From Acidobacteriota bacterium (lineage in GTDB: Bacteria > Acidobacteriota > Thermoanaerobaculia > Thermoanaerobaculales > Sulfomarinibacteraceae): a stretch of DNA of 38,348 bases. Positions 25,285-35,413 of this stretch are shown in pieces (position 1 is the first letter of the stretch; every line of letters begins with the position of its first letter). The stretch lies in contig WGCW01000145.1 in the NCBI GenBank assembly GCA_015493585.1, forward strand, positions 1 through 38,348, given 5' to 3'. Position numbers and translations under genes: made by a program. Under the pieces are notes generated by a model. The model did not search any database. It had not been told where the DNA came from and saw only the letters and a list, made by a program, of their open reading frames with translations.

Positions 25285-27603
25285 CTATTCGTGTCCGAGA
25301 TCTGGAACGATCTGATTTCTGCCCTGACGTTTTGCCGTCAGGAGCCGTTCATCAGCCTCGTTGATGATCTCAAGTGGGGTCGGCATGGTTTGACCCTCTT
25401 TGGGAGACACCACAGCCACGCCGATTGAGATCGTCATCTGAAGAGTGTGCTCCGGAGAGATCACGATCCGCATTTCCTCGATGGCGACCCGCAGCTTGTT
25501 GGCGACGGCACATGCCTGGGGCAACGTGCTTTCCGGAAGCACCATGAGAAACTCCTCGCCCCCGTACCGTCCAATCGAATCGGTGCTTCGAAGATTCCGC
25601 TTCAACGCAGTCGCAACCTGCTTGAGAACCGCATCTCCAGCGAGGTGGCCGTGACGGTCGTTGACTCTCTTGAAGTGATCCAGATCTGCCATGGCAACCG
25701 AGAGGGGACGCTGGTAGCGGTCGGCACGTTCGAGCTCACGTCCTAAAACATCGAGAATAGCCTCACGGCGAAGGAGGCCGGTGAGCCCCTCATACGTCGC
25801 CGAATGAAAGAGCCGGACGTTTTGGAGAATCGTTGCCGCGTGGCGGGAAAAGAGGCTCAGCAGGTCAATTTCTTCAGCACTGAATGGCTCGTGGTCCCGT
25901 TTTTCTCCGAGTGTGAGGAGACCAACGAGCTGATTGCCGGTGACGAGCGCCGAGACGACAGCCGCATTGAGCGGTGCGAGGCGTATCCCGAGAGACGGGC
26001 TGAGCGAAGCAACATGCTGTGCCTTCAGGGGCCGGTCTGTTGTTTTGAGGAGCTGGAGACCTGGATCCTCGGAATCGATGAGGAGGGAACTTTCGAGTAA
26101 GAGATCCGCGTTGGGAGCGTCTGAAGCCAAGGCCACGACAACGCCCGACCTCGGGTCAGCGATGAAGAGGGCCGTCGACGTCACACCAAACGCTGAAGTG
26201 ACTTCGTGGACGAGGTGTTTCCCAATGGCAGAGATGTCACCCAGGGCGGGAACGTCGGCCGCCACCTGAACGAGCCTCTGACGCAACGCCATGCGCTCAG
26301 GGAAGAGACGGCGGTCGATGATTTCTTGGATTTTCTTTCGCATGGGCCAAAAGAGGAGCCCCAACAGCAGGGTTGTCGCCGAGATGACCCAAACCGACGT
26401 GACCCCCGCTGTCGTCTGGGACAGGAACATGCCTGCCAAGCTCAGCACCCCATAGAACAGGCCGATCATCAGGATGGTGAGCGTGGAATACACGAGGCTC
26501 CGCTTGATCACGAGCTCGATATCGAAAAGGTGGAGCCGGTAGATGGCGATGAAGATGGCGATGGGACAGGGGAGGAGGACGAGCAGCTGAACAATGTTCA
26601 ACCACTGGCTCGTGGTATACCCAGTTCGACCCACGAGCTCCAAAATCAACGAGAAGAGCGCCCACGGCATGAGCCCGATCAGGACCAGCATGGCATGTTG
26701 ACGTTCGATGGGTCCAACGGCGCGATGGGCCTGATACGCCAGAATCGCAATGATGGCAAATGCCCAGACCGTGATCCCAGTGTTGAACGTTTCCAAAATC
26801 TGATCAGATGTCCATGGGAGAACCTGCTTCCAAAACACCTCGGTAAACAAGGAAAGCGGCCCCAGTATGGCGAATCCAATCCCAATCCAGTAGTAGGCGC
26901 GGACAATCCAGGGGTGCCGTTTGATCCACGGGGCCGGTTTGGGAATGACGGAAGCTAGATGGAAGAGGAGGCCGATCTGCAGGCCGTTGATCAGATAGAA
27001 CCATAGATTGCCGAAAACCCACCAGGCAATAGATCCATACGCACCGGCTGGTGCAGCAAGCTCCAGGGCAACAGCGGCCGAAAAGGCAGCGAGGAGGCGT
27101 GCCCGCGGGTCCGCTGGAACTTGGAACCACGCGACCAGGGCGATCAGGAGATAGGCGAGCGTCGTCAGGAACGTGGCAAGCGCAAAGATCCAAGGGAACG
27201 GGATGCCCGGTGTAAGGGTGACGCTGATGTGCTTCTTTCCTCTTAGGATCTCCATATGGAGCGGCTTGCCGTTCTTCTCGGCTGGGATCACCGCGGCATC
27301 GTAATCCTTAAATGAATGGATCCGATGTCCGTTCACGCTGATCAGGAGATCTCCTGACCGGAGACCTGCTCGAGCGGCCGGCTGATCAGGGTTCACCGAC
27401 GAAAAGAGAAGGCCCTTGTGGGTCACGTCGATTGTTACTCCGATCCCGTGCGCATTGAACTGTGCAATTTGAAGAAACTGGATCAGAAACAGAACGAGAA
27501 CAGCCGTAGAGACGAGGATGCCGATCGCCCGATGCCATACAGCCCATCTCGCATTCTGAGAGCGTGCTGAAGTGAGACGTGCCATACCAGTGCTCTGGCT
27601 CAT
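25285..27603 (-). CDS. Membrane diguanylate cyclase with PDZ, GAF and GGDEF domains
   Basis: The 772-aa protein has one N-terminal helix (about 28-47), a periplasmic PDZ-like domain (about 55-130: PDQPAARAGLRSGDLLISVNG), about eight further helices to residue 420, a GAF domain (about 455-605) and a C-terminal GGDEF domain. The membrane part ends with YRLHLFDIELVIKRSLVY and KIQEIIDRRLFPER, as in ComP/LiaS-like kinases, but the kinase is replaced by a cyclase. The active site is GGEEF in RYGGEEFLMVL. An RSTD five residues earlier is a canonical I-site for product inhibition. It should make cyclic di-GMP from GTP in response to an envelope signal sensed by the PDZ or membrane part; the signal is unknown. 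No strong ribosome site decides between Met1 and Met7. Confidence 0.9.
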   Translation of the reverse strand: MSQSTGMARLTSARSQNARWAVWHRAIGILVSTAVLVLFLIQFLQIAQFNAHGIGVTIDVTHKGLLFSSVNPDQPAARAGLRSGDLLISVNGHRIHSFKDYDAAVIPAEKNGKPLHMEILRGKKHISVTLTPGIPFPWIFALATFLTTLAYLLIALVAWFQVPADPRARLLAAFSAAVALELAAPAGAYGSIAWWVFGNLWFYLINGLQIGLLFHLASVIPKPAPWIKRHPWIVRAYYWIGIGFAILGPLSLFTEVFWKQVLPWTSDQILETFNTGITVWAFAIIAILAYQAHRAVGPIERQHAMLVLIGLMPWALFSLILELVGRTGYTTSQWLNIVQLLVLLPCPIAIFIAIYRLHLFDIELVIKRSLVYSTLTILMIGLFYGVLSLAGMFLSQTTAGVTSVWVISATTLLLGLLFWPMRKKIQEIIDRRLFPERMALRQRLVQVAADVPALGDISAIGKHLVHEVTSAFGVTSTALFIADPRSGVVVALASDAPNADLLLESSLLIDSEDPGLQLLKTTDRPLKAQHVASLSPSLGIRLAPLNAAVVSALVTGNQLVGLLTLGEKRDHEPFSAEEIDLLSLFSRHAATILQNVRLFHSATYEGLTGLLRREAILDVLGRELERADRYQRPLSVAMADLDHFKRVNDRHGHLAGDAVLKQVATALKRNLRSTDSIGRYGGEEFLMVLPESTLPQACAVANKLRVAIEEMRIVISPEHTLQMTISIGVAVVSPKEGQTMPTPLEIINEADERLLTAKRQGRNQIVPDLGHE

Positions 27604-27865: not shown

Positions 27866-29209
27866 CTACATGCGATCGATGATCGCCTGCCCGAATCCCG
27901 AGCACGAAACCTCGGTGACGTCCTCACGTCCCTCCCGCCGCATCAAACGTGCGAGGTCGTACGTGACGACGGCATCGTGAATGGCCTTCTCCATCCCGTT
28001 GATAATCAAGTCTCCCGCTTCGCTCCAGCCCATGTGGTTGAGCATCATGACCGCAGAGAGAATGATCGATCCCGGATTGACCTTGTCCATTCCCGTGTAC
28101 TTCGGTGCCGTGCCGTGTGTGGCCTCGAAAAGGCCGATCTCGTCGGACATGTTAGATCCCGGTCCGAGCCCGAGGCCGCCGACGAGCGCAATCGCCGCAT
28201 CTGACAGGAAGTCGCCCTCGAGGTTGGGAAGAGCCAGGACGCTGTACTCGTCGGGGCGCGTCTGGATCTGCTGGAAGATGGAGTCAGCGATCCTGTCTTT
28301 GATCAGGATCTTGCCTTCCGGAACTTTTCCGTCAAAGTTGTCCCAGACTTCCTTCTCCGTGATGGTCTTATCGCCAAACTCCTCGGCGGCGACCTCGTAC
28401 GCCCACTTTTTGAAGGAGCCTTCGGTGAACTTCATGATGTTGCCCTTGTGCACGATGGTCACCGAAGGGAGGTTCTGCTGGATGGCCCACTTGAGAGCGG
28501 CTCGCATCAGCCGTTTGGATCCAAACTCCGAGATCGGCTTGACGCCGATGCCGGAATCGGAACGGATCTCGCGGCCGGTCATGTCTTTGATGAGTTTGAT
28601 AATCGCCGTGGCGACTTCACTGCCGCGCTCGTAATCGTAGCCTGCGTATACGTCTTCGGTATTTTCACGGAAGAGGATGAAGTTGACTTTACTAGCGTAC
28701 TTGTTAGGGGAGGGAACGCCTTCGAAGTAGCGGACCGGGCGGACACAGGCGTAGAGATCGAGACGCTGGCGGAACCGGACGTTGATCGAGCGGAACCGCT
28801 TCGTGACACCATCTTCCCGGCCGCATTTGTCGCATTTGCCGCCGTGGTACTGCTGATGGGCGCAGTAGAGACAGACGTGGGTCTCTTCTCCGATCGGCGT
28901 CGTAAACGGTCCCTTGATCGCGACCTTGAGGTAACGAATCGCCTCGACGGTCTCGTCAGGGAACTCCGTTCCATAATGGTGCAGCCCTTCCAGACCGGCG
29001 TACAGAGGGCACCATGCAATGCCCCTCTGACCACCGTATGCCTTGTTGACGGCTTCATCGACGACGTGCTGCATGACGGGTGTGATGTCGAGGCCGATCC
29101 CGTCTCCCCTCAGCACCCCGATGATCGGATGGTCACCGGCTTCAATCTTCCCATTTTTCGTCTGGATGAGATCCCCTTCTGGGATCTTGACTTCTTTGAA
29201 CTGGACCAT
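27866..29209 (-). CDS. icd: NADP-type isocitrate dehydrogenase with a four-Cys insertion
   Basis: The 447-aa enzyme converts isocitrate to 2-oxoglutarate in the TCA cycle. It has GVLRGDGIGLDITP, AIKGPFTTPIG, the substrate serine in RSINVRFRQRLDLYACVRPVRY, FRENTEDVYAGYDYE, NLEGDFLSDAAIALVGGLG and ATHGTAPKYTG. The fold matches E. coli Icd (416 aa). Between TTPIG and RSINVR lies an extra segment of about 28 residues (109-137) with Cys113, Cys116, Cys126 and Cys129 (CLYC and CDKC), a zinc-ribbon-like knuckle. It sits directly before the serine loop that binds isocitrate and that E. coli IDH kinase phosphorylates. The coding frame is intact, so this is not a frameshift. NADP use is inferred from overall similarity. 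The ATG at 29209 follows AGGAGGTGTGGC. Confidence 0.95.
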   Translation of the reverse strand: MVQFKEVKIPEGDLIQTKNGKIEAGDHPIIGVLRGDGIGLDITPVMQHVVDEAVNKAYGGQRGIAWCPLYAGLEGLHHYGTEFPDETVEAIRYLKVAIKGPFTTPIGEETHVCLYCAHQQYHGGKCDKCGREDGVTKRFRSINVRFRQRLDLYACVRPVRYFEGVPSPNKYASKVNFILFRENTEDVYAGYDYERGSEVATAIIKLIKDMTGREIRSDSGIGVKPISEFGSKRLMRAALKWAIQQNLPSVTIVHKGNIMKFTEGSFKKWAYEVAAEEFGDKTITEKEVWDNFDGKVPEGKILIKDRIADSIFQQIQTRPDEYSVLALPNLEGDFLSDAAIALVGGLGLGPGSNMSDEIGLFEATHGTAPKYTGMDKVNPGSIILSAVMMLNHMGWSEAGDLIINGMEKAIHDAVVTYDLARLMRREGREDVTEVSCSGFGQAIIDRM

Positions 29210-31412: not shown

Positions 31413-32438
31413 TTACAGCTGATTTTTCTGGAACATGTCCCGGAGGGCCAGCAGAATCTTGGCGAAATTGTGTTCCTTGAGGAAAGCTTGGAGCTCATCC
31501 TTGGCCAGCCCTTTGTGCATCCGAACGTGAATGGCATCGATCACGTCGTAGAAATCTGAAAGGGGTTGCAGTCCGAGAGGGGAAAAATTGTGTTCGTACC
31601 ACGGATGCTCACGGACCTTCAGCCACACGGCCGGCGTTGGAGGTACCTCGCGCTCCCATAGGCCTTCGGCGATGGCTGTCACCTCACGGTATAAGGCGTC
31701 GAGCACGGACTTCGTATCGCCGTCATCCATGGCGGCGACAACGGGATGCCGATCGTCGGCCGGTGGTGCGACAGGTTCGGCCTGCTTTTTTGAAACCGGG
31801 GTTGTTGGCGGGGACGCTGGCTTTGGTTCTTTCGCTGGCTTTTTTGACGTTTTGGTTTTTGGGGCCCTGGCTGTCTTTGATGCGGGGGGATGCGTGACGT
31901 CCGGAGCCGGCGGTTCGCTTCGCGACTTCTTGGGCTCATGTGCTTCCACCGGGGCCATTTCTTCCTTCGTTGCCTCTTGCGTACGACCCGACGAGCTTTT
32001 TGCGGCAGATTCCATGACTTTCCGGAACCGGAGGTGGAAGGTGCCCAGGAAAACGAGCTCGTTTTCGCTGATCATCCGTGCGAGCGCGAGTTTTTGCCGC
32101 ATCGTTTCCATCTCCATCATGCGGGCGTGAAGGAGAGGAGCGCTCGGTGCAAGTTCCCTGAGCTGGGGAAGCAGGGTTGAGTCTGATTCGAGGACCTCAA
32201 GGAGATCCTCGAACGAGGCAAAATCGATGATCTGCTGGTACTCGCTCTCGTACCAGTCGATCGCCTGCTCGTGTTCCTTTCGATCGATGAGCCGGGTGAG
32301 GACATGCTGCGGGAACCCGTTTCGAAACCACTCTTGGCCATAGTGATTCTCAAGCTCAGCATGAAGGGCGGAGCGAAGATCCAACAAGATCTGCGCGAGG
32401 ATTCGGTACGCGTCCAGATTCTGTTCGAGATTGACCAT
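31413..32438 (-). CDS. HEPN-like protein of unknown function with a basic linker
   Basis: I do not recognise this 341-aa protein firmly. The N-terminal 145 residues are helical: AYRILAQILLDLRSALHAEL, EQAIDWYESEYQQIIDF, then METMRQKLALARMISENEL. The last piece resembles the HEPN pattern R-x4-6-H before LSxxEL (Swt1-like group), but Leu/Ala stand where the His is expected. A Lys/Pro/Ala-rich linker (about 150-225) follows. The C-terminal 110 residues are again helical, and WYEHNFSPLGLQPLSDFYDVIDAI echoes the first half's WYE...FEDLLEVLE, suggesting a diverged duplication. There is no signal peptide. It is downstream of trmJ on the same strand but has its own promoter. The ATG at 32438 follows GGAGG. 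A nuclease role is unlikely if the motif is lost. Confidence 0.75.
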   Translation of the reverse strand: MVNLEQNLDAYRILAQILLDLRSALHAELENHYGQEWFRNGFPQHVLTRLIDRKEHEQAIDWYESEYQQIIDFASFEDLLEVLESDSTLLPQLRELAPSAPLLHARMMEMETMRQKLALARMISENELVFLGTFHLRFRKVMESAAKSSSGRTQEATKEEMAPVEAHEPKKSRSEPPAPDVTHPPASKTARAPKTKTSKKPAKEPKPASPPTTPVSKKQAEPVAPPADDRHPVVAAMDDGDTKSVLDALYREVTAIAEGLWEREVPPTPAVWLKVREHPWYEHNFSPLGLQPLSDFYDVIDAIHVRMHKGLAKDELQAFLKEHNFAKILLALRDMFQKNQL

Positions 32439-32515: not shown

Positions 32516-32544
32516 ATTATAAACCGGAACGAACGCAAAATCAC
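32516..32544 (-). promoter_or_regulatory. Promoter of the HEPN-like gene
   Basis: GTGATT (32539-32544), 17 bp, perfect TATAAT (32516-32521) on the minus strand. The -35 overlaps the trmJ stop codon. The leader would be about 70 nt. Confidence 0.65.
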
Positions 32545-33311
32545 ACGTCTTCCGATTCGAGGTCCTCCGATTCGACTTTTCCGTCGCCGTAACGGGGGAG
32601 ATGTGTGGGGTCGGCATGCGCCGCCCACTCCATCTGACGGCAAATCCCGTGGAGAATTGCGATCTCGTTTTCGGTTACGCCGGCTCGTCCAAGCATGCGC
32701 CGGATTTTCCGGAGGGTCCGTTCTGGGTTGACCGGGTCGAGAAACCCGATGGTCAGGAGGCTCTTCTTGAGGTGATCCATGAGCCGGCCCAGGGCCGACT
32801 GCGGTGCAGGGACGGGTCCGGTCGGAGGGCCTGGTTCGAGGGCGCTTGTCAGTGTGCCAAGTGAAATCGCGATGGCTTGCGTGAGGTTGAGAACCGGAAA
32901 CTCAGGGACGGTCGGGATCCGAACGGCCATGTCACACCGGTCCAGGTCTTCCCGCCGCATCCCCCGTGTCTCATTTCCAAAAACGAGCGCCGTTTCGTTG
33001 AGGGGGCGGGTGGAGAGAGCCGTTGCGGCCTCGGAAGGCGTCAGGACGGGAAGGTTGCTCCGGCCGCGGCCTGACGCCGTACCGACGAGCACCCGGTACC
33101 GTCCGGCTGCCGAGGCAAAATTGTCATGGATCCTGATCGAGAGATGGAGATGGGCGCCGCAGGCCCATTGGCGGACCTCGGGTGCATCGGGATCGATACC
33201 CGGCCGGACGAGATCGAGCACCGGGACCCCGAAGTTGGCGGCGACCCGCATGGCGGATCCCAGGTTGATTGGAAAAGCGGGCTCGACCAGGATGACCGAG
33301 GCAAAGGGCAT
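32541..33311 (-). CDS. trmJ: TrmJ-like tRNA (cytidine/uridine-2'-O-)-methyltransferase
   Basis: The product is about 256 aa and belongs to the SPOUT (SpoU/TrmH) knot methyltransferases. Motif 1 is EPAFPINLGSAMRVAANFG; motif 2 is ETALVFGNETRGM; motif 3 is FPVLNLTQAIAISL. With the C-terminal helical extension (TLRKIRRMLGRAGVTENEI), this is the TrmJ layout, which methylates the ribose of tRNA position 32 using SAM. The preferred start is the ATG at 33311 (MPFASVILVEPAFP). TATAGT (33318-33323, minus strand) ends 6 nt before it and there is no Shine-Dalgarno, consistent with a leaderless mRNA. The ORF-track start at 33401 adds 30 residues of no visible homology. Confidence 0.9.
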   Translation of the reverse strand: MPFASVILVEPAFPINLGSAMRVAANFGVPVLDLVRPGIDPDAPEVRQWACGAHLHLSIRIHDNFASAAGRYRVLVGTASGRGRSNLPVLTPSEAATALSTRPLNETALVFGNETRGMRREDLDRCDMAVRIPTVPEFPVLNLTQAIAISLGTLTSALEPGPPTGPVPAPQSALGRLMDHLKKSLLTIGFLDPVNPERTLRKIRRMLGRAGVTENEIAILHGICRQMEWAAHADPTHLPRYGDGKVESEDLESEDV

Positions 33312-33370
33312 GAAGCAACTATACCCGACCTCACCTGAGGCCTGGGTTTCGGGTAGAAGAATGAGCGGCG

Positions 33371-33376
33371 TATACT
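33371..33376 (+). promoter_or_regulatory. -10-like box upstream of the rhomboid gene
   Basis: TATACT, flanked gcg...ccc, lies 57 nt before the rhomboid ATG. No convincing -35 is visible. The promoter would be divergent from the trmJ one, about 50 bp away. Confidence 0.3.
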
Positions 33377-33433
33377 CCCCGGAAGAAAGCTGCGGCCTCA
33401 ACGTAAGGAAGGGAAGAAGGCAAGGAGGGCCGG

Positions 33434-35413
33434 ATGATCATTCCCATTGGACCAGAGGATACGTCGGTCAGACGCCTGCCCTGGGTCACGATCACGATTA
33501 TGATTCTCTGTGTCGCCGTGTTCTTGATGACCCTTCCGGTAAAAAAACGCATCGCTCAGAAAGCAGGAGCAGAGCTGAGCCAAGCCGTCCGCTACTACAT
33601 GGAGCATCCGTACCTCGAGCCTCCCTCCGAGCTCAAGCGAATCCTTGGGAGCGGGAACAAGGAGAAGGATGCGGCCTTGCGGGAGCTGGTGAAACAGTTC
33701 GGAAAGAAGCCGCCCGAAGATTCTGCCGTCAGAAAAGAGCAGCAACAGCGGCTGGAACGGCTCGTGAAGGTCGTCTTTACAACGATTCACCAGATGCCCG
33801 CCTACCGGTTTGGCCTCATCCCGGCGAACATCAGGCCGGCATCGTTGATCACCCACATGTTCATGCACGCAGGTTGGATCCACCTGTTGGGCAACCTGTT
33901 TTTCTTGTACCTGACCGGTCCGTTCGTCGAGGATGAGTTGGGGCGGCCGATCTTTGCTGCCTTCTACCTCGTCGCTGGTGTGTTCGCGGGGCTGATGTTT
34001 GCGATCCATTACCCGAACTTTCAGGGTCCGCTCATTGGGGCTTCAGGCGCCATTGCAGGTGTGATGGGAGCGTTTGCAGTCCTTTTCTGGAAGAGAAGAA
34101 TCCGATTTTTCTACTGGATTGGTGTGATTTTCACCGGTACCTTTTCGGCGCCTGCCTGGCTGATGATCGGGCTTTGGTTCTTGAGGGAGCTCGTCTTTGC
34201 TCAGGGGATGGATGCACTTGGCATGTCCGGAGGTGGAGGCGTTGCGCATTGGGCCCATGTGTGGGGGTTCGGGCTTGGGTTCGTGACGGCGGGAGCGCTT
34301 CGTCGCTTCGGGATTCTTGAAAAGTATGTCAGCCCGGCTATCGAGTCCAAGGTGACGTTGGTGGACAACACCATCATCGACGATGCGATGGAGATGTTTC
34401 GTGCCGGCGACACCGATGGGGCGATTGCGCATCTGAAAGAGGCCATCCAGAGCGACCCCGGGAACGTCGATCTCAAGCTCGCTGCGTGGCACCTGTACGT
34501 GGAGAGTGGCAGGATCGAACAGGGCTCGGCCATCGCCGTCGATCTGATCCGCCGCAGCTTGAGACAGGGAGACGGCGAGATGGCACTGATGGTGTGGTCC
34601 GAGCTGAAGAAGTCGGGTGGAGACCTTTTTCTCGACGCCGTAAGCATCATCCGGCTTGCCGGCCTTCTCCGTGACGAAGGCCGTCTCGATGAGGCCCGCG
34701 AGACGATTCACGATCTCATGCTGGCCGGGGATCAGGCGGTGCCGGTTGGCGCTGCCGTCCGGGCAGCCCGTCTTGCCCACGATCTCAATGCGCCGGATGC
34801 CGCGGCGCTGATCGAGCGGGCACTTCGCATGCCTGAACTTGCGCCGGAGGCGCGGGCTGAACTCTCAAAAATACGTGATGAGGCCGCGGCGCCAGTTGTC
34901 CCAACTGCTGTCCCATCATCCCCTCCGGAAGCACCCGTCAAAGAAGAGGAGGCCACCCCACAGGAGCGGGCTCCCGTTGACCTTGTCGCAGCCGTTCACA
35001 CGCTCAAGGTCATGCGGGCCATCCCTCTCCGCTTCACGGCTGAAGGGCTCATGATTCGGGTAGGGGAGAAGGAGCACCAGCTTGGAAACGCACAGGTGGA
35101 AGCGGTGGCCGTCGCTGGGATCAAGGAGGGACCGCGGCCCTATCTCCTCATCGATCTGCTGCTCGACGGCCCGTGGAGCGATCAGCCGGAGCTCCGGATC
35201 GTTCGCCTCGATAGCCGGACCTTCAACCCCCGCACCGTGCTTGGCAAAGGCGAGGAAAATCCAACCCAGGCTCTGAGGGCGATCCTTGATGAGTTGCTCC
35301 GCTCAACCGGGGCCGTGCCGCTCCCCGATCCGGACGCGGCCCGTGGCAAGCCGTTTGCCATGTTCGCCAGTGAACAGGAGTACGAGCGAACCGTCTTGTC
35401 TGTGGCATCGTGA
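33434..35413 (+). CDS. Rhomboid-family intramembrane protease with TPR-like C-terminal part
   Basis: The 659-aa protein has one helix (about 17-35), a charged loop of some 90 residues, and a rhomboid core of six or so helices (about 130-300). The core shows HAGWIHLLGN (Asn154), the nucleophile Ser204 in IGASGAIAG, and the partner His275 in AHVWGFGLG, so the catalytic dyad is complete. The cytoplasmic C-terminus has TPR-like helical repeats (about 315-470, AMEMFRAGDTDGAIAHLKEAIQSDPGNVDLKLAAW), a Pro/Glu-rich linker and a small domain (about 520-655) of unknown type. Rhomboids cut membrane helices; the TPR part probably binds partners. Start ATG at 33434 follows AAGGAGG by 5 nt. It has tail-to-tail contact with the AMMECR1 gene (9 nt gap). 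Confidence 0.92.
   Translation: MIIPIGPEDTSVRRLPWVTITIMILCVAVFLMTLPVKKRIAQKAGAELSQAVRYYMEHPYLEPPSELKRILGSGNKEKDAALRELVKQFGKKPPEDSAVRKEQQQRLERLVKVVFTTIHQMPAYRFGLIPANIRPASLITHMFMHAGWIHLLGNLFFLYLTGPFVEDELGRPIFAAFYLVAGVFAGLMFAIHYPNFQGPLIGASGAIAGVMGAFAVLFWKRRIRFFYWIGVIFTGTFSAPAWLMIGLWFLRELVFAQGMDALGMSGGGGVAHWAHVWGFGLGFVTAGALRRFGILEKYVSPAIESKVTLVDNTIIDDAMEMFRAGDTDGAIAHLKEAIQSDPGNVDLKLAAWHLYVESGRIEQGSAIAVDLIRRSLRQGDGEMALMVWSELKKSGGDLFLDAVSIIRLAGLLRDEGRLDEARETIHDLMLAGDQAVPVGAAVRAARLAHDLNAPDAAALIERALRMPELAPEARAELSKIRDEAAAPVVPTAVPSSPPEAPVKEEEATPQERAPVDLVAAVHTLKVMRAIPLRFTAEGLMIRVGEKEHQLGNAQVEAVAVAGIKEGPRPYLLIDLLLDGPWSDQPELRIVRLDSRTFNPRTVLGKGEENPTQALRAILDELLRSTGAVPLPDPDAARGKPFAMFASEQEYERTVLSVAS

Follow-up and report, generated by a model that had tools for sequence, protein, structure and literature searches.

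What could a protein with the outline of a HEPN domain, and without the histidine of its catalytic motif, be doing in a bacterial cell? The question is raised by an open reading frame in a 38,348-nucleotide stretch of DNA from an Acidobacteriota bacterium (hereafter the window; features are collected in Table 1). A sequence-only reading of the window had described the product as HEPN-like in its N-terminal half, with a lost histidine, a possible internal duplication and a strong promoter of its own, and had left a scaffold, an RNA binder or a neutralised toxin-like protein as its possible roles.

Table 1. Features of the locus, with coordinates in the window
Feature	Coordinates	Strand	Remarks
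Whole gene	31413..32438	-	341 aa: degenerate HEPN domain, variable linker, novel helical domain
N-terminal domain, residues 1-150	31989..32438	-	Swt1-type / PDC-M34B-like HEPN by profile; seven helices
Putative former HEPN active site, residues R114-R121 (RQKLALAR)	32076..32099	-	From alignment to RNFIAH and RNPAKH of relatives
Linker, residues 151-225	31764..31988	-	Pro/Ala/Lys-rich, 52% P+A+K; variable in length, sequence and charge
C-terminal helical domain, residues 226-341	31416..31763	-	AlphaFold2 pLDDT 87.5
Possible -10 element, TATAAT	32516..32521	-	Exact match, 83 nt upstream of the ATG, between trmJ and the gene
TrmJ-type SpoU RNA methyltransferase gene	32541..33401	-	Upstream, co-directional; PF00588; TIGR00050 below its cut-off

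The open reading frame, which begins with ATG, is a genuine gene: it has homologues throughout its order, and dN/dS relative to a congener is approximately 0.06 in the N-terminal domain, 0.05 in the C-terminal domain and 0.08 overall, values that are rough given a dS of approximately 1.8, near saturation. An alignment of the family shows two conserved blocks separated by a stretch of changing length and sequence, and nonsynonymous divergence is much higher in this linker than in either domain. The gene is strongly constrained, though not at its former catalytic site.

To judge from the agreement of several profile searches, residues 1-150 are a diverged HEPN domain of the Swt1 type, nearest to PDC-M34B, a phage-defence candidate in PADLOC-DB. 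The window protein matched the PADLOC PDC-M34B profile (PDLC04592) at 39 bits (E 1.5e-10, profile positions 60-176 of 192), far below the 226.7 bits of its relative L097. Profile-profile alignment (hhalign) of the family with seven PDC-M34B-type relatives gave a probability of 97.9% (E 6.5e-13, 116 columns), and alignment of the family's N-terminal domain with a mixed HEPN_Swt1 set, made up of PF18731 members collected across the phylum, gave 95.5%. When the N-terminal and C-terminal domains were used in separate phylum-wide searches, the N-domain profile matched just four proteins among 149 genomes: two members of the family, plus L097 and L098. L097 is a curated HEPN_Swt1 protein (PF18731, 49.8 bits; E 9.8e-12 in the genome-wide N-domain search), the N-domain profile scored 46-47 bits against one PF18731 member (L092/L097), and L097 and L098 both match the same PADLOC PDC-M34B profile as the window protein. 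These concordant results bear out the HEPN-like character first proposed for the N-terminal half.

Curated libraries gave no such signal. PF18731 matched neither the window protein nor 31 of its homologues, and searches of Pfam, NCBIfam and PHROGs returned no reliable match, many of the weak ones falling on the low-complexity linker. The AlphaFold2 model of the N-terminal domain is confident (pLDDT 87.9, pTM 0.82) and all-helical, with seven helices of which the first and last are long; a Foldseek search of the PDB with this model found nothing significant, the HEPN structure 4nqf appearing at rank 14. The HEPN assignment therefore rests on sequence profiles that agree in register and on the helix layout.

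PDC-M34B and related solo Swt1-like HEPN proteins are homologous to residues 9-129 of the window protein, and they have in common with it R22, W37 and the helix that leads into the active site. They differ in keeping the R-N-x3-H motif, in being sporadic and in having neither the linker nor the C-terminal domain, whereas the window family has no catalytic pair in any member and is core to an order. The likeness to HEPN_Swt1 (PF18731) is one of profile against profile, and the window protein differs in having no match to the Pfam model itself; most PF18731 members in the phylum are about 1,100 residues long and have an intact RN-x3-H. PDC-M34 was not mentioned in the literature that we searched. 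One of the relatives, a PDC-M34B-type protein with the motif RNPAKH (L098:766-1899), adjoins a gene for a SIR2-like protein that matches PADLOC PDC-S65 and the SIR2 of Argonaute systems, and this gene content makes the L098 locus a likely defence locus.

The segment RQKLALARMISENEL aligns to the R-N-x3-H region of HEPN domains, with R114 in the place of the arginine, Q115 in that of the asparagine and L119 in that of the catalytic histidine (columns R114-Q-K-L-A-L119). The histidine is indeed missing, as had been noticed, and its loss reaches well beyond the window: all seven active-type PDC-M34B relatives keep the motif (RNFIAH, RNPAKH, RNVVAH, RNTICH, RNTVCH, RNIVGH and RNLVGH), versus none of the 39 family members with arginine and histidine together. 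The histidine column is occupied by L, M, R, Y, G, A, T, S or D in the family and by histidine in two members only (L031:4703-5755 and L057:4866-5933, both of family f2, one of the two families of the order, f1 and f2, that carry the gene), both of which have no arginine. The arginine is retained in 22 of 39 members, mostly in f1, with L or F in its place in most f2 members.

Conservation elsewhere in the domain follows a different pattern. By entropy, the site columns R114, Q115 and L119 rank 63, 126 and 110 of 136, versus R22 and W37, which are invariant (39/39), L131, also invariant, and R106 and E109, which are nearly so. Since R22 and W37 are also found in the active-type relatives, the hallmarks of the domain have been kept while the catalytic pair has not. 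The best reading of these alignments is that the family consists of HEPN proteins without the catalytic pair, which are probably catalytically dead. We infer that an active ancestor preceded this loss; the tree is not rooted.

A separate helical domain, with no match in the libraries searched, makes up the C-terminal half. It carries the conserved motif W-x2-V...WY...F-x2-L-x-L-x-PLSDFY, its model found nothing significant by Foldseek in the PDB or BFVD, and neither Pfam nor PHROGs matched it. Across the 149 phylum genomes, the domain was not found outside the order and is confined to the family. A match to a connected cytochrome c555 trimer in a search of PDB sequences (E 3.8e-6) was set aside, as it amounts to a single short helix that aligns three times to a chain built of repeats. 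The proposed internal duplication did not survive comparison of the two halves: hhalign of N against C gave a probability of 0.85% (E 0.065). Nor is the WYE...DVIDA-like pattern on which it was based a repeat, as the WYE of the N-terminal half is not general and most f2 members have WNLS at that position; the WYE common to both halves is best read as a chance triplet. The linker that had been called basic is so in the window species (net charge +6), but not as a trait of the family, in which charge ranges from -29 to +6 with a mean of -6.4. The N-terminal domain has a negative net charge in 37 of 39 members, and both globular domains are acidic in most.

Whole-genome search found homologues in 33 of 60 relatives. 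All belong to f1 (17 of 20 genomes) or f2 (16 of 17), the two families of the order (33/37 in total); the 23 other genomes of the class have none. The named relatives are Acidobacteriota, several of them labelled Thermoanaerobaculia, Thermoanaerobaculales or Holophagae. The order is represented by 25 high-quality genomes, of which 24 have the gene, and N- and C-terminal domains occur together in every genome that carries it except one in which the gene ends at a contig edge. Several genomes have a second, diverged copy. In the tree, the main copies group by family and genus; 82% of bootstrap trees place those of f2 together on one side of a branch, and most of the second copies stand apart. 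No relative was found on plasmids or in phages. This tree structure, together with the lack of plasmid or phage relatives, speaks for a core gene of the order passed on by vertical descent, and not for a mobile toxin or defence gene. Second copies of f1 (L032, L034, L035, L036 and L039) lie near a gene for a protein with PLD-like domains (PF13091 and DrmC-type PADLOC matches, from a scan of L035), and an FxsA-like gene was noticed by eye near some of them.

Evidence from the neighbourhood is specific to each lineage. A perfect TATAAT occurs twice in the window, once upstream of the gene, and the congener L062 has one at -87; the -35 region matches at three of six positions at best, and a scan for sigma-70 promoters found none. 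The claim of a strong promoter is borne out in part, by a possible -10 element that is shared with the congener. The upstream trmJ gene was rejected as a functional partner, as the two genes are adjacent in one genus only (the window and L062). In f1, the family gene is often convergent with a gene for an MltF-like protein and lies near genes for a multihaem cytochrome c and NapC-type proteins; the MltF-like SLT gene is a frequent neighbour there but, being convergent, was not accepted as a partner. In most f2 genomes, the gene closes a run of ccmB, ccmC, ccmE, ccmF and a gene for a LON substrate-binding domain. Twelve f2 genomes carry this LON-domain gene, and in all 12 it adjoins the family gene; where the spacing was measured, 1-13 nt separate the two. 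The LON-domain gene is not a universal partner, as f1 lacks it, the window's genome included. Conserved partners were looked for, and none is common to f1 and f2.

PADLOC matched none of the seven window neighbours scanned. Other genes in the window drew attention in passing: a diguanylate cyclase (25285-27603) in which an N-terminal PDZ domain is followed by GAF and GGDEF, a combination of PDZ and GGDEF that looked unusual; an isocitrate/isopropylmalate-dehydrogenase-type protein (27866-29209) with a Cys-rich stretch, VCLYCAHQQYHGGKCDKCGREDG, that resembles a small insertion of the zinc-ribbon type; and a rhomboid protease (33434-35413) fused to TPR repeats and a C-terminal extension.

Inactive HEPN domains are known from part of the MtlR family and from eukaryotic Swt1, and a non-catalytic role, RNA binding, has been proposed for them (Anantharaman et al., 2013; PMC3710099). 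The present family resembles these cases in that the catalytic motif has been lost from a retained domain for which a non-catalytic role can be proposed. It differs in having no PIN domain, in lying outside mannitol operons, in its unique C-terminal domain and in being a core gene throughout an order. By its sequence, it would add to a known superfamily a new branch that is catalytically dead and novel in architecture.

How should these observations be explained? That the N-terminal half is a generic helical domain with a chance similarity to HEPN might be argued from the missing Pfam match and the insignificant Foldseek results, but the profile matches agree on one family and one register, and the sole matches outside the family in 149 genomes are HEPN-type proteins; we consider this reading very unlikely. 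An active RNase with a displaced or alternative site seems equally improbable. Strings that fit R-x4-6-H do occur elsewhere in the N-terminal half of the window protein (RNGFPQH at 39-45 and RLIDRKEH at 49-56), and L031 has a pair, R116...H121, displaced by two; however, no such string is conserved in the family or located at the HEPN site, the columns of which are among the more variable of the domain.

Two further possibilities accept that the domain is dead. It could be an antitoxin-like or immunity partner of an active HEPN toxin encoded elsewhere in the genome, since HEPN domains dimerise and pairing with a dead copy could, in principle, inhibit an active one. We give this little credence: the window's genome has no match in a PF18731 search and no other homologue, and the gene is core and stands alone, with no PADLOC match among the neighbours scanned. 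A more serious contender, possible although we think it unlikely, is a non-catalytic regulator of the kind proposed for MtlR, its dead domain binding RNA and blocking translation or elongation. It has in its favour the published proposal for motif-less HEPN domains (PMC3710099), the conserved arginines near the former active site (R106, R121 and R137) and the position of the gene after an RNA methyltransferase gene in the window's genus. Against it stand the acidic character of the two globular domains in most members, a basic linker that is not conserved, and an adjacency to trmJ that is limited to one genus; no RNA-related neighbour is conserved. The acidity of the N-terminal domain and the unconserved charge of the linker favour a scaffold over an RNA binder. 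Of the roles first suggested, the toxin-like one fits the kinship with PDC-M34B, and RNA binding is weakened by the acidic domains and by a basic linker that is not a family trait.

With moderate confidence, we read the protein as a domesticated HEPN protein that is catalytically dead and acts as an adaptor, not as an enzyme. Some HEPN proteins without the motif have been reported to be effective toxins (PMC3710099), so its absence is no proof of inactivity. The HEPN domain is permanently fused, by way of the variable linker, to a lineage-specific helical domain, and the protein would work without cleaving RNA, as an adaptor or regulatory scaffold. HEPN domains are generally dimeric; the dead one would provide a docking surface, probably as a dimer, and the C-terminal domain may bind a second partner through its conserved aromatic WY...F...PLSDFY segment. 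In most f2 genomes the gene comes straight after the LON-domain gene and closes a cytochrome-c maturation cluster, a placement hinting that its function there lies close to protein quality control or to the assembly of cytochrome c. A fuller history is more tentative, and we offer it as a possibility held at low confidence: a phage-defence-type HEPN toxin may have been captured in the ancestor of the order, lost its active site, been fused to a new helical domain and become an important non-enzymatic adaptor in essentially every member.

The gene represents an unannotated core family in a bacterial order whose members are known mainly through metagenomes. It is a clear case of a toxin-type RNase domain under strong selection without its active site, and it makes the non-catalytic role proposed for dead HEPN domains directly testable. 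In this order, a former defence domain seems to have been turned into a non-enzymatic housekeeping part.
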